The notes beneath the pieces are model-generated. The model was not told where the DNA came from. It made no database searches and saw nothing but the letters and a program-made list of their open reading frames with translations. Shown piece after piece: positions 40,715-61,849 of a DNA stretch of 64,000 nucleotides. The DNA is from Acetobacterium woodii DSM 1030 (GTDB taxonomy: Bacteria > Bacillota > Clostridia > Eubacteriales > Eubacteriaceae): contig NC_016894.1 in NCBI RefSeq assembly GCF_000247605.1, forward strand, positions 2,717,732 through 2,781,731. Direction: 5' to 3'. A program made the translations under genes and the position numbers. The number at the start of each line of letters is the position of its first letter. Positions within the stretch are counted from its first letter, which is position 1.

Positions 40715-43700
40715 ATGAAAGGCATTCGAACAAAACTGATGGTTTATTTTTCCGGGTTGATTCTCATTATCTGTGCAATTTTTACCTTTGTTTCGATCAC
40801 CGCGTTAACCAAATCCGTGGTAACCGAAGCTGAGAAATCGTTGCAAAAACAAGCTCAAAATTCAGCTGAAATTATCAGCAGCCGAAACGAACAAAATTAT
40901 ATTTATCTTGAGGGAATTGCCTCCCGGGATAAGATTTTCTCGAACACTATACCAATGGCTGAAAAAATGACCATCCTTAAAAACGATGTCCGTAGTTCAA
41001 ACCGATTCCTGCGAATTGGGGTTGCTGACCTTAATGGAAACCTTTACCTCTCGGATAGCTATGGCGATCGGGGACAGATTGTCGATATCACCACCCGTGA
41101 TTATTTTCATGACTCAAGCGTTGGTAAGCGGGGTACATTGAATCCCGTCATTAGTGTCAATCCTGATGACAACGGGGCCTTAATCATGGCCTATTCGGTG
41201 CCCATTTATGAAAACGGTACCATTACCGGCGTTCTGGTTGCTGTTGCTAATGCCTGGTTTTTAAACGATATCACCGACAACATGAACTTTGGCAAAACCG
41301 GATATACCTACATTGTTGATTCAACCGGCACCGCTATCTCTCATCCCGAACGAGATAATGTTGTTAATCAGATGAATCCCATTACCCTCTCCGATACCGA
41401 CCCCAACTATAAAGAACTGGGGAATGCTTTAACATCGGCTTTGACTCAAGATTATGGAACAACTACCTATACCCTGAATAACACGAAATACTACCTCGGT
41501 TTTGCCAAAGTGGCAGGGATGGACTGGACTGTTCTTCTTACTATTGACTCCACCGAAGTTCTGGCTGCTCTTCCCGGCGCCATCTTTAGCAGTGTGCTCA
41601 TTTCTATTATTGTTCTGGCTATTAGTCTGATCCTTTGTTATTTCATTGCTAAACGGATTAGCGGCCCCATTAAATTAGTCAATCATATGATCAAAGAAAT
41701 GGGCCTGGGCCATTTAAGCACGCGTCTTAACATGGATAGCAATGATGAAATCGGAGAGATGGCTCTGGTGATGGACAATTTTGCCGATAATCTGCAAACT
41801 GAAGTGATTGCAGTCATGAATCAGATTTCAAATGGCGATGTCTCCGCTGACATTAACATCAATGATGATCGCGACGAAATCAAACCGGCTCTTAAAAAGA
41901 CCATTGAATCGATTCGTGGTTTAATTGCCGAAACAGCCCTACTGGCCCAAGCTGGTGTTGCCGGTGAACTTTCCACGCGGGGCGATGCTGACTCATTCAA
42001 TGGCGGTTTTAAAGATATTGTCGTCGGTGTGAATGAAACCCTTGACGCTGTGGTTGGTCCTCTTAATGTCGCTGCCGATTATGTCGAGCGCATTGGCAAA
42101 GGACAAATCCCGGAAAAAATCACAACTGCCTATAATGGCGACTTCAATACGTTAAAGAATAGTATCAATGCCTGTATTGACGGGTTGGGGGCCCTTAAAG
42201 AAAGCAACCGCGTGCTTGGTCAAATGCGGTTAAATGATTTTTCTGAAAAAATGCCAACAAATTATCTGGGCATTTACTCTGAAATCGCCCATTCAATCAA
42301 TGCTGTCCATGATCAATTAAACCGTATTGTCGCCATTTCAACCCATGTCGCGAATGGCGATATGAGTGATCTGGAAGGACTTTCTAAAATCGGCAAACGT
42401 AGCGATAACGATACGTTGATTCCGGCTTTGGTCGGCATGATCCAGACTATTATCGCGCTGGTAAATGAAACTAAACAAATGGCTGATATTGCCGTTGAAG
42501 GTAATTTGAGCAACCGTGGCGATGTCTCACGATTCCCTGGTGAATTTGGTAAAATTGTAATTGGCTTTAATCAAACCCTGGACGCTGTTATTGCCCCGAT
42601 TAAGGAAGCCTCTGCAACCCTCACCCAGTTGTCCCTGGGTAATCTTGGTATGAAAATGGAAGGTCAATATTGTGGTGATCATACGCAAATTAAAGACGCC
42701 TTGAATCAAACCATTGACTTCTTAAATCGCTATGTTATGGAAATAACCAGTACGCTGGAAGAAATGGGCCACGGCAACTTGGATCATGAAATTACTACTG
42801 AATATCTGGGGGACTTCCAAGCGATTAAAACGGCCCTTAATGATATCAATACCAATCTCAGCGCTACCATGACTGAAATTGATGTGGCTGCTGAACAAGT
42901 TGATATCGGCGCCAAACAGATTTCCGACGGTGGTCAGGCGTTGGCCCAGGGCACCACCGAACAGGCTAGCTCGATTCAGGAATTAAATGCTTCCATTGAA
43001 GAGGTTGCCATTGAAACAAAGAAAAACGCCGGCCGTGCCAATGATGCCAATGAACGCGCCGTTGAAGTTCGCACCTATGCGGAAGTCGGCAATACCCAAA
43101 TGACAAAAATGATCACCGCTATGGATGATATTAATCTGTCTTCCAATAATATTTCCAAGATCATTAAGGTCATTGATGATATCGCCTTCCAAACCAATAT
43201 TCTGGCCTTGAATGCCGCTGTCGAAGCGGCCCGTGCCGGTTCGCATGGTAAAGGTTTTGCTGTTGTTGCTCAGGAAGTCCGAAATCTGGCCGTCAGAAGT
43301 GCCGAAGCCGTCAAGGAAACAAGCAGCCTGATTGAAGGTTCCATCGATAAAGTGAACATGGGCACTAAAATTGCCGATGAAACAGCTATTAGTCTCAAAG
43401 AAATTCTTGATGCGATTGAAAAAGTTACTGCTCTGATTAGCGACATTGCTCAGGCTTCGAATGAACAAGCCTCTGAAATTGCCCAAATCACCCAAGGCAT
43501 TGAACAGGTTTCTCAAGTGGTTCAAACCAATTCAGCCACCGCCGAAGAAAGCGCTGCCGCCAGTGAAGAACTGTCCGGTCAAGCAGAAATGTTAAAAGAA
43601 ATGGTCGACGCCTTTAAAGTCAAAGCTATCACTCAAACGGCATTTAAAAGATCTACTGCCGTAAAATCAGAACCCCTTATTTCCGATAAATCAACACTGC

Positions 43701-43958: not shown

Positions 43959-46817
43959 ATGAAATGGTTCTGCAATATGAAAATTGGGGCGAAGTTAATG
44001 GTGAGTTTCATCATTCTCGCACTCATATCAGGAATTGTCGGTCTTTTAGGTATTATTAACCTACAGAGTCTTAACGACTCGGATACCCAGTTATACGAAA
44101 ATATGACTGTACCAATTGCCGAGGTTGGTCAAATCTCTACGTCCTATCAGCGGATGCGCGTTATCGTAAGAGATATGATCATTGAAAACAGTCCGGAATT
44201 AATCCAGTCAAATGCGGATAAAGTGATCATCCGTAATAATGAGATTGATGAAGCTGCCGCAGCCTTTGCAACAGCAATCGTTGATCCTGAGATGCAAACG
44301 GTTTACGACGAATTTGTCGCATCTCGAAAAGTTTTAGCTCAGGAATTTGCAAAAGTTAAAGCCCTCGCTCTGGAAAATCGTGATGCCGAAGCCTTTGCTT
44401 TAATGGCTGATACCGGATCCTATGAAATAGCGGCTCAGGTCGAAATGGATGCAATCAATAAGCTCGTGCCGATGAAATTGAATGAAGCCAAAGCCAAAGA
44501 AGATGCAGTTACACTTCAGGGAAATTCAGCCGTAACCATTCTGGAAATTATCACTGCTATCTCTTTTATTGTGGCAATTGCTTTCGGACTGATTCTTCGT
44601 TCGATTATCAGTAAACCATTAGGGGCTGCTAATCAGATGATCAAAGAAATGAGTTTAGGACATTTTTCTATCCGTCTTAATATGGATTGCAAGGATGAAA
44701 TAGGTGAAATGGCCCGATCGATGGATACCTTCTCTAACGATATTCAAACGGTTATTATCGGCACCATGAATCAAATCTCCAATGGCGACGTCAGTGCCAA
44801 TGTTGAACCACGAGATTCCAAAGATGAACTAGCACCAGCGCTGAAGTTAACCATCAAAACAATCCGAAACCTGATTAATGAAGCGACCATGCTTTCAAAT
44901 GCCGCAATCGCTGGCGAATGGCATACCCGCGGCGACGTTAATGCCTTTAATGGTGGCTACAAAGAAATTCTTGAAGGTGTCAATGCGACATTAGACACGG
45001 TTGTTGATAAAATGGTTTGGTATGAAGCTATCATTGATGCGGTGCCATTTCCAATTCATGTCACCGATAATAATATGAAATGGACGTTTATGAATAAACC
45101 ATTTGAAGATTTAATGATTGCCAATGGTGTTATCAATGATCGTAATTCAGCTTGTGGAATGGATTGCTACAACGCTAATGCAGATATTTGCCGAACCGAT
45201 GGCTGCGGTATCCGACGTCTGGTCGACCAAGGTTTAAGCGACAGTTATTTTGAGTGGGTTGGCCGTAGCAATAAACAAGATACCGCCTATCTGAAAAATG
45301 CTAAAGGCGAAAATATCGGATTTGTCGAAGTTGTTACCGATTTAACCCCGATTATTCGGGTCAGAGACTATACCAATGATGAAGTAAAGCGACTTGAAAA
45401 CAACCTGATGCGTTTATCCGAAGGAAATCTGGACTTTGATATGGCAATTGGCGAAGCCGATGAATATACTACTGAAGTGAGTATCCAATTTAATGAAATC
45501 GTTAAGAGTTTGACCGCTGTAAAAACCTCCATTGATAATATGATTAGTGATACGATCATGCTGGCTCAAGCTGGCATTGAAGGTCAATTGGATACCAGAG
45601 CCGATATCAGTCACCATCATGGCGATTTTGCTCGTATTGTCGATGGTGTCAATGCGACTCTGGACGCTGTTGTCAAACCGATTAAGGAAGCTTCGGCCAC
45701 CTTAAATCAACTCTCTCAAGGAAACCTGGAAACCGGAATGATTGGAGATTACAATGGTGATTACACCATAATTAAAAACAGCATGAACCAAACGGTTGAT
45801 TTCCTAAAACGTTATGTGGATGAAATTACTTCCACCCTCGAAGAAATGGGTCAAGGCAATCTCGATCAACATATCGCTTCCGATTATTTGGGCGATTTCC
45901 AGGCTATCAAATTAGCACTTAACGATATTACCAGTACCCTTAGCAAAACGATGAACGAAATTAATATCGCCGCGGGTCAGGTAGATATGGGAGCCAAACA
46001 AATCTCTGATGGTGGTCAAGCCTTATCCCAAGGTACCACCGAACAAGCCAGTGCCATTCAGGAATTAACCGCGTCAATTGAAGAAGTTGCCGCAGAAACC
46101 AAACGTAATGCCATGAATGCTAACCAAGCCAACGAGTTGGCCGTAAATGTTCGTAGCAACGCTGAAAAAGGAAATACTCAAATGGCCACGATGATTGATG
46201 CGATGGGAGATATCAATGATTCTTCCAACAACATTTCAAAAATTATCAAAGTTATTGACGATATTGCCTTCCAGACTAATATTTTAGCACTTAACGCAGC
46301 TGTTGAAGCGGCCAGAGCTGGTCAGCATGGCAAGGGTTTTGCCGTCGTTGCCGAAGAAGTTCGGTCGCTGGCTGCCCGAAGTGCCGAAGCCGCTAAAGAA
46401 ACCACTGGCTTAATCGAAGGTTCTATCGAAAAGGTTAGTGTTGGTACTAAAATTGCTGATGATACTGCTGAAAGCCTAAGAGAAATTCTTAATCAGATTG
46501 ACAAGGTTGCGGCTTTAGTTGGAACCATTGCCCAGGCTTCCAACGATCAAGCCTCCGAAATCGCCCAAATTACCCAAGGGATTGAACAGGTTTCTCAGGT
46601 TGTTCAAACCAATTCTGCTACCGCCGAAGAAAGTGCAGCTGCCAGTGAAGAACTTTCAGGACAAGCTGAAATGCTTAAAAACATGGTCGATGCTTTCAAA
46701 ATAAAAGCAGAAGGTAATACCAACACTCAAAAACAAACCCCTGTCAAAGCGCTCGAAAAAAACAATCCACCGCAACCAGAACCAACAATAATACTTGATG
46801 ATATGGATAAATATTAG
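43959..46817 (+). CDS. Methyl-accepting chemotaxis protein, 4-helix sensor with a Cys-rich PAS domain
   Basis: 952 residues. A membrane helix lies near 12-33, a four-helix-bundle (4HB_MCP-type) extracellular sensor at about 36-190, a second helix at 192-214, then HAMP modules. From about 352 to 460 a PAS-like domain interrupts the HAMP stack and carries four cysteines (399, 403, 411, 416; C-x3-C-x7-C-x4-C). More HAMP-like repeats follow and the conserved signalling tip at the C-terminus. The C-terminal half is nearly the same as the gene upstream, so the two arose by duplication with sensor exchange. The cysteines suggest a redox or metal sensor inside the cytoplasm. GGGAGGG precedes the ATG. 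Confidence 0.92.
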
Positions 46818-47430: not shown

Positions 47431-47647
47431 AAAACCTTTCAATTAATAGGTAATTGCGAAATAAAAAAAAATCGAACAGTGGTTGCTTTGGGTTCAGTTT
47501 CCACAAACAATTTCGTAACGTGTAGGCGAACAGTTCATCGAACTGTCCGCCGTACAGTGTAGAAATTGTTTCGTGCGAAACTGGGCCCGAAGCTCACGGC
47601 ATTTTCGCAATTACCTATTTCAATTAACAGTGAAAGGGATTTTTCAG
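47427..47647 (+). terminator. Hairpin split by repeat copy 2 (former terminator)
   Basis: The left arm CTGAAAAACCTTTCA (47427-47441) and right arm TGAAAGGGATTTTTCAG (47631-47647) are complementary and would form the terminator of the gene at 47158 if the element and one copy of its 10-bp duplication were removed. The element sits in the loop, so the stem can still pair around it. Confidence 0.6.
47447..47617 (+). mobile_element. MITE-like structured element, copy 2
   Basis: 171 bp, ends TAGGTAATTGCGAAA and TTTCGCAATTACCTA (perfect inverted repeats). It is flanked by the direct repeat TTTCAATTAA (47437-47446 and 47618-47627). It is nearly identical to copy 1 throughout; in the basal stem CCCAAAGC is CCCGAAGC, which keeps pairing as G-T. 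It lies in the loop of the preceding terminator hairpin and 126 bp upstream of the gene at 47744. It carries no open reading frame with gene character. Confidence 0.88.
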
Positions 47648-49230: not shown

Positions 49231-49251
49231 TATTAAAATTAAATCATTAAT

Positions 49252-49409
49252 CAGGTACTTGCGGAATTAAAAAACATTGAGCCGAGGTTGCTTTATATGC
49301 AATTTCACAAGCGATTTTGTCACGTGTCGGCGAATTGTCGGCCGTTTCGGGTAGAAATTGTTTCTTGCGAAACTGGACATAAAGCTCGCGACACTTTCGC
49401 AATTGCCTA
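49252..49409 (+). mobile_element. MITE-like structured element, copy 3 (diverged)
   Basis: 158 bp, older and more diverged than the others. The ends are CAGGTACTTGCGGAA and TTTCGCAATTGCCTA. It is flanked by AAATCATTAAT and AAATTATTAAT, an 11-bp target duplication with one mismatch. Although the sequence has changed, the basal stem is kept: GCTTTAT pairs with ATAAAGC where the other copies have GCTTTGGG with CCCAAAGC. It sits downstream of a promoter and 29 bp upstream of the start codon of the coiled-coil gene. Confidence 0.78.
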
Positions 49410-49438
49410 AAATTATTAATAAATGACAGGAGCTAAAA

Positions 49439-49669
49439 ATGGATGAATTAAACAAATTAAGTGATGTTGAACTTAAAAACAAGCTGGCAGATTTAAAAGA
49501 AGATTTGGAAGATGTCGAAAATGAACGCAGTTTTATTTTCAAACAATCGGGAGTACACGTTTCCAGCAGTAAAGTTTCCATTCAAATGGAAGAATATGAT
49601 ACTGATATCGAAAACCTAACCGCATCGATTGCCAAATGCGAAAAAGAAATTAAACGTCGAAACATTTAA
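49439..49669 (+). CDS. Small coiled-coil protein
   Basis: 76 residues, highly charged and helical with heptad-like spacing (LSDVELKNKLADLKEDLEDV, then IENLTASIAKCEKEIKR), likely a dimeric coiled coil. CAGGAG lies before the ATG and a good promoter lies upstream, with repeat copy 3 in the leader. No family was recognised. A terminator at 49672 follows at once. Confidence 0.7.
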   Translation: MDELNKLSDVELKNKLADLKEDLEDVENERSFIFKQSGVHVSSSKVSIQMEEYDTDIENLTASIAKCEKEIKRRNI

Positions 49670-61494: not shown

Positions 61495-61605
61495 AAAGTT
61501 AGCAACTTATTCTGAATAGAAAATTTTGTCGCAACCCAGGAACTTTAACCTAATTTATATATAACTATTTTCTATCAGAAATATGTTTTATGTCAATAAT
61601 TAAAT

Positions 61606-61774
61606 TAGGTAATTGCGAAATTAAAACAGCGAACAACGGTTGCTTTGGGTGCAGTTTCCACAAACAATTTTGTAACGTGTAGGTGAACCGTTCATCGAAC
61701 TGTCCGCCGTACCGTGTAGAAATTGTTTCGTGCGAAACTGGGCCCAAAGCTCACGACATTTTCGCAATTACCTA
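61606..61774 (+). mobile_element. MITE-like structured element, copy 4
   Basis: 169 bp, ends TAGGTAATTGCGAAA and TTTCGCAATTACCTA. It is flanked by AATAATTAAAT on both sides (61595-61605 and 61775-61785), a perfect 11-bp target duplication. Nearly identical to copies 1 and 2 including the central AACCGTTC/GAACTGT hairpin (one substitution). It lies between the promoter at 61467 and the flotillin gene, 75 bp ahead of the start codon. Confidence 0.88.
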
Positions 61775-61849
61775 AATAATTAAATTTAAAGGAGGTTTAA
61801 TAATTATTTAGAAACGCTGGTCACAATTTCAATTTATTAGGAGGATTTA

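Follow-up and report, generated by a model that had tools for sequence, protein, structure and literature searches.

The repeat at positions 49252–49409 of the window (the whole 64,000-nt stretch of the Acetobacterium woodii DSM 1030 genome analysed here, from contig NC_016894.1) is one of four copies there of a small non-coding transposon of Acetobacterium, of the MITE type. The element folds as one long hairpin whose two arms have changed jointly in copies of different species, and in most copies, in either orientation, one of its ends lies at a fixed distance from a Shine–Dalgarno (SD)-like purine tract. As a whole, these observations are best explained by a non-autonomous MITE with SD-anchored insertion whose hairpin is retained mainly in spreading lineages, a reading to which we assign a probability of roughly 0.8.

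Identity and range of the repeat

As expected of a MITE, the element is short, non-coding and multicopy, and it is bounded by terminal inverted repeats of about 15 bp, TAGGTAATTGCGAAA and TTTCGCAATTACCTA. Its usual size, from TAGG to CCTA, is 171 bp, a length shared by 187 of the 249 close pairs of terminal repeats in fetched loci that overlap one another. A covariance model based on 28 copies gave at least 143 matches in the 4,044,777-bp host genome among the best 150 of 2695 candidates scored. Merging the palindrome's two strands by hand leaves at least 129 places, at least 122 of them above 60 bits; because 150 of the 2695 candidates were scored, this copy number is a lower bound. Flanks were analysed for 121 host copies, that is, the 129 less seven under 60 bits and one with short flanks.

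The repeat belongs to one genus within the collections searched. The model matched 17 of 19 Acetobacterium genomes (the host included, and one with a single weak match) and none of 42 genomes of other genera, searched with stricter filters. An exact 23-base core occurs in 21 stretches of a named genome collection, every one labelled Acetobacterium: A. wieringae, A. fimetarium, A. dehalogenans and A. bakii, together with an A. woodii MAG and an Acetobacterium sp. MAG. A 21-base core had no match among viral contigs, and Rfam 15 gave no match anywhere in the window at the gathering threshold. The accessible portions of the open-access literature on MITEs and Shine–Dalgarno sequences, and on Acetobacterium and MITEs or repeats, describe neither this element nor SD targeting.

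Two observations document insertion itself. First, direct repeats of 9 nt or more, mismatched at one position at most, border 97 of the 121 host copies, and 90 of the 97 span 10–13 nt; pairing left and right flanks from different copies gave a mean of 1.55 and a maximum of 4 in 20 shuffles. Second, one insertion in genome G018 has empty sites in two relatives, G010 and G017, where the blocks on either side share 9 and 11 bp, as expected of a duplicated target; the unoccupied sites also contain the SD and the start codon. The original prediction had proposed that the fold serves either transposition or an RNA; of these, the former is supported by the inverted ends, the duplicated targets and the empty sites.

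All four copies in the window lie on the + strand. Copy 1 (1633–1803; AGG to CCT, 1634–1802) lies between target duplications at 1623–1633 and 1804–1814, with a T at 1633 that may belong to either the element or the duplication. Outside it, GGAGG (1819–1823, +) is the SD of an ABC-transporter ATPase gene (1829–2551) that starts 26 nt from the end of the copy. Copy 2 (47447–47617; AGG to CCT, 47448–47616) has target duplications at 47437–47446 and 47618–47627 and an outlying AAAGGG motif (47633–47638, +); the interval examined beyond this motif lacks a start codon. Copy 3 (49252–49409; AGG to CCT, 49253–49408) is diverged and carries a 12-nt apical deletion. Its target duplications, AAATCATTAAT (49241–49251) and AAATTATTAAT (49410–49420), differ by one mismatch in 11, and its SD, AGGAG (49428–49432, +), precedes a 76-aa open reading frame (ORF; 49439–49669, +) that belongs to no Pfam family and starts 30 nt from the copy end. 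Copy 4 (61606–61774; AGG to CCT, 61607–61773) has target duplications at 61595–61606 and 61775–61786, with a T at 61606 that again may belong to either, and a AAAGGAGG motif (61788–61795, +) followed by no start codon over the interval examined. Near this copy, the SPFH/flotillin gene does not start until 61850, and the orthologous locus in relatives has no alignable leader. The window also holds a diverged direct repeat (66%) at 42538–42837 and 45620–45919, the second copy of which lies inside a 952-aa ORF that by eye resembles a chemotaxis receptor.

Size variants occur as well. Tiny elements of 52–70 bp consist of little beyond the two terminal repeats (L322:4563-4622, L328:2816-2867, L320:2676-2745, L330:2947-3006 and L336:2669-2728); those in L322, L328 and L336 sit, by eye, upstream of an SD-like motif and ATG. 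Four host copies form a 132-bp class without the apex, and at G000:C1:53903-54251 in the host genome two copies adjoin, one apparently inserted beside the end of the other. A 259-bp copy in G016 (L359:2051-2309) carries an unrelated palindrome-rich insert within one arm and occupies the site found empty in G010 and G017.

Covariation of the hairpin arms

Joint change of the arms was assessed in 213 of 222 aligned copies from the host and other genomes of the genus, found partly by a structure model and afterwards aligned by means of a profile built on sequence alone; the counts exclude five inverted-core copies and rows with 30 or more gaps. On a single FastTree tree with Fitch parsimony, the 62 stem pairs carry 90 same-branch double changes, 70 to 71 of which lead from one standard pair to another (random tie-breaking shifts the count). 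When the 3′ partners are shifted by 1 to 4 columns, 24–40 doubles result, 1–7 of them from standard to standard, a comparison in which the tested structure, the minimum-energy fold of the host consensus, is favoured over the slid registers. A branch-permuted null that preserves column and branch loads is free of that bias and yields a mean of 14.7 (s.d. 3.5, maximum 26 in 300 permutations), compared with 70 observed.

Over 13,695 column pairs, the covariation statistic places stem pairs at all of ranks 1–6 and at 12 of the top 50 ranks. A first R-scape-like test, with an APC-corrected G statistic and a per-column tree null in which substitutions were placed by branch length, returned no significant pairs, although its statistic nonetheless ranks stem pairs at the top. 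Whole stem segments differ in other species yet stay complementary (GCTTTACGCTCAG/CTGAGCGTAAAGC, GCTTAACGCTCAG/CTGAGCGTTAAGC and GCTGTGATGCCGG/CCGGCATCACAGC). The idea that the fold matters would fail if stem positions varied independently in a larger alignment; with many copies aligned, the covariation is strong, both in the top-ranked column pairs and in the excess of paired doubles over the permuted null.

That idea had come from copy 3, in which GCTTTAT (49290–49296, +) faces ATAAAGC (49379–49385, +) where copies 1 and 4 have GCTTTGGG/CCCAAAGC and copy 2 has CCCGAAGC. The letters were quoted correctly, but the stem is not basal, as had been stated: the base of the hairpin is a 14-bp terminal repeat, and the quoted stem lies further inside the hairpin. 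The two arms did change together at two adjacent pairs (G-C to A-T and G-C to T-A), but the next pair is broken (A.C). Relative to the host-genome consensus, copy 3 differs at 28 of 156 aligned positions and has standard pairs at 45 of 53 comparable pairs (8 of 53 non-standard), where the same number of random substitutions leaves a mean of 40.9 standard pairs and a 95% range of 36–46 that includes its 45. Its minimum-energy fold deviates from the consensus fold. Two or more Watson–Crick doubles arose by chance in 13% of 5000 simulations for this copy; with this P of about 0.13, the broken neighbouring pair and overall pairing inside the drift range, copy 3 alone is not beyond chance. We put chance as the source of its paired changes at somewhat below even odds, as pairs from the same stretch (44/140, 45/139 and 46/138) are among the five highest covariation scores over all copies. 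The fold thus matters on the evidence of the genus as a whole, which extends neither to copy 3 by itself nor to selection on each drifting copy.

Covariation of this kind could also be mostly mutational, with template switching copying a change in one arm to the other in the absence of selection on the fold. Paired transversions on a single branch account for many of the doubles (TA to GC occurs seven times at columns 66/116). Paired transversions are also seen in the near-consensus copies 306646 and 2875419. In copy 183024 the right arm exactly complements the left where the common form does not (CTGCACCC), and copy 35458 is a near case. In five host copies the inner core, judged by eye, reads in the opposite direction to the ends, as though through recombination between the arms (G000:C1 703903, 1808601, 2698577, 790890 and 3947084). 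These inverted cores and the near-consensus paired transversions suggest recombination or template switching between the arms as one source of paired change. As the main source it is unlikely: the long asymmetric bulge and the small bulges persist in most aligned copies, and single changes that break pairs are common on leaves of the tree.

Selection could instead act on each copy in place, with the hairpin being a functional RNA in the 5′ leader that controls stability or translation of the downstream gene. The strong covariation agrees with such a role, as does the location of 95 of 121 host copies directly before an ORF start. Across the tree, single changes from a Watson–Crick pair go to G.T 252 times and to A.C 161 times, and G.T exceeds A.C at 36 stem pairs with the reverse at 14 (p = 0.003, among related sequences). 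Other genomes share this preference, by 16 to 14 among variants seen at most twice and by 67 to 36 among those seen at most ten times. Selection on RNA in place leads one to expect G.T on the transcribed strand; the split of G.T and A.C by gene side leans as predicted when all states are counted (p = 0.017) and is not significant for rare changes (p = 0.11 to 0.56).

Private changes in the host genome do not reveal selection on each copy. Among the 106 host copies with 90% or more likeness to the consensus, singleton frequency is 0.39 per column where bases pair and 0.42 where they do not; for variants seen up to three times the figures are 0.87 and 1.07. In the same 106 copies, the middle stem is quieter, with private changes at 0.27 per column, which would suit an RNA role, and bulge columns 15–32 are busier, at 0.61. 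In a set of 112 host copies, stem-pair singletons comprise 13 G.T, 12 A.C, 31 other mismatches and no doubles, and variants seen at most twice include three paired doubles compared with no unpaired ones. The quiet middle stem, these three paired doubles and the surplus of G.T over A.C on the tree speak against plain drift. No preference for one orientation is apparent either (R 54 and L 36 in the host, R 35 and L 52 elsewhere), and Rfam has no match in the window. A functional RNA in place is improbable as the explanation. Because most private changes in host copies look like drift, the fold is best regarded as retained mainly in spreading lineages: it seems to be kept mainly at that level, with arm-to-arm correction contributing.

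Position relative to Shine–Dalgarno-like motifs

Outward from one end of the element, the layout is the target duplication, about 5 bp, and then GGAG. A loose SD-like motif occurs 14–24 nt outside either end at 114 of the 121 host copies, compared with 3 to 18 of 121 in eight other distance intervals, and is absent at the remaining 7 of 121. A strict motif at the same distance accompanies 103 of 121 copies (1 to 11 in the other intervals). Copies in other Acetobacterium genomes, which are best-scoring or hand-picked places rather than a random sample (105 less one with a short flank and one with a duplicate flank), have the strict motif at 15–23 nt in 81 of 103 cases, compared with 8, 4 and 6 in three control intervals.

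Genes follow the same geometry. In 95 of the 121 host copies one end is no more than 45 nt from an ORF start, which is on the right in 54, on the left in 41 and never on both sides, with distances clustering at 26–31 nt; the same holds for 86 of the 103 copies from other genomes. In the 95 gene-side flanks, GGAG or a near form stands at 17–19 nt in 67. A start was scored as ATG, GTG or TTG within 200 nt, preceded by an SD-like motif and followed by at least 45 stop-free codons, in a flank of at most 390 nt. Because this rule itself demands an SD-like motif, the distance of the start, not the motif, is the result here, and the independent evidence consists of start distances and ORF-free motif counts only.

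The anchor can be separated from the start codon by their variation. In 165 cases, with GGAG at a median position of 18, SD position is uncorrelated with SD–ATG spacing (rho −0.05) and the distance to the ATG is correlated with it (0.64); the variances are 6.8 for SD position, 10.0 for ATG distance and 4.1 for the spacing. SD position is thus independent of the spacing and ATG distance dependent on it, so the anchor is the SD and not the ATG. Furthermore, the loose motif is found in 17 of 21 host copies with no ORF of at least 45 codons at that place (the 26 copies lacking such a start, minus five in which a weaker motif precedes a long open frame); several of the 21 do carry a short ORF. Eight of these 17, window copies 2 and 4 included, lack a start codon over the interval examined. 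At G000:C1:306646 the SD-like motif is, by eye, an arm of a terminator-like hairpin rather than a gene start.

Survivorship alone, with insertion everywhere and persistence just upstream of an SD, is very improbable: insertions into genes or promoters would often do harm, but other intergenic sites should be tolerated, yet the motif sits at 17–19 nt in those 67 of 95 gene-side copies and recurs in 17 of 21 copies with no sizeable ORF start. Retention in 5′ leaders could nevertheless sharpen a looser target preference.

Proposed mechanism and comparison with known systems

With SD-anchored insertion as the preferred reading, the repeat is rather likely to reflect a DNA transposition system that targets the Shine–Dalgarno motif and inserts a self-folding hairpin at a fixed distance upstream of ribosome-binding sites, at about a hundred or more genes of one genome and in either orientation. 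A putative transposase or target-selection factor would recognise the DNA motif AAGGAG(G), with cuts about 5 and about 16 bp upstream of it; because the cuts would fall there, the SD and start codon would survive insertion. Most copies would then drift. The hairpin may be retained, mainly in spreading lineages, because transposition may need the palindrome, because a 5′ leader may accept, in both orientations, only an element that folds on itself, or for both reasons, and arm-to-arm templated correction probably generates some of the paired changes.

Two transposase families were considered as partners and set aside. For PF01609 (IS4/IS5-type), two copies in the host genome have other ends, 28 scanned loci fetched from the genus show no good terminal repeat, and there is no match in G010 and G018, both rich in copies of the element. 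PF03400 (IS1-type) occurs in none of the 19 genomes. No autonomous element with the same ends was found among the PF01609 and PF03400 loci and the fetched DNA, and the 1.26 Mb of fetched sequence, parts of which overlap, yielded no terminal-repeat pair that was both long and clean. Of 32 raw terminal-repeat pairs over 250 bp, the five with no inner end span 251–259 bp and have no open frame above 84 codons; one longer pair encloses a 573-aa ORF that by eye resembles a solute-binding protein.

If this reading is true, an element that finds ribosome-binding sites would own a built-in safe harbour beside genes, under a simple target rule of motif, gap of about 5 bp and duplication of 10–13 bp. 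The same hairpin placed in many mRNA leaders would then provide a natural experiment on the effect of 5′ structure on expression. Acetogens of this group are used in gas fermentation. The covariation offers a clean case for weighing selection that keeps a transposon palindrome against arm-to-arm correction.

Hairpin-structured MITEs are familiar in bacteria, among them Correia/NEMIS of Neisseria and ERIC and YPAL of enterobacteria. RUP and BOX of pneumococcus are of the same kind (PMC3049150). Like all of these, the Acetobacterium element is short, non-coding, multicopy and highly base-paired, with inverted ends and a target duplication. Unlike them, it has a target that lies a set distance away from an SD-like motif; the sequence comparison is with Rfam, which has no match in the window. 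Within the accessible parts of the open-access literature surveyed, this SD-like target at a fixed distance is a feature with no described match.

REP/REPIN elements, which are mobilised by RAYT, are by definition short palindromes with no target duplication. The Acetobacterium element resembles them in being palindromic, high in copy number and intergenic, but it is longer and has terminal repeats of about 15 bp, and its target duplications set it outside the REPIN/RAYT group. Some insertion sequences have sequence-specific targets such as REP elements, as described in a published account (PMC1525189). Compared with the insertion sequences described there, the Acetobacterium element likewise enters a repeated genomic motif rather than random sites, but its motif is SD-like, lies outside the duplication and stands on one side only.
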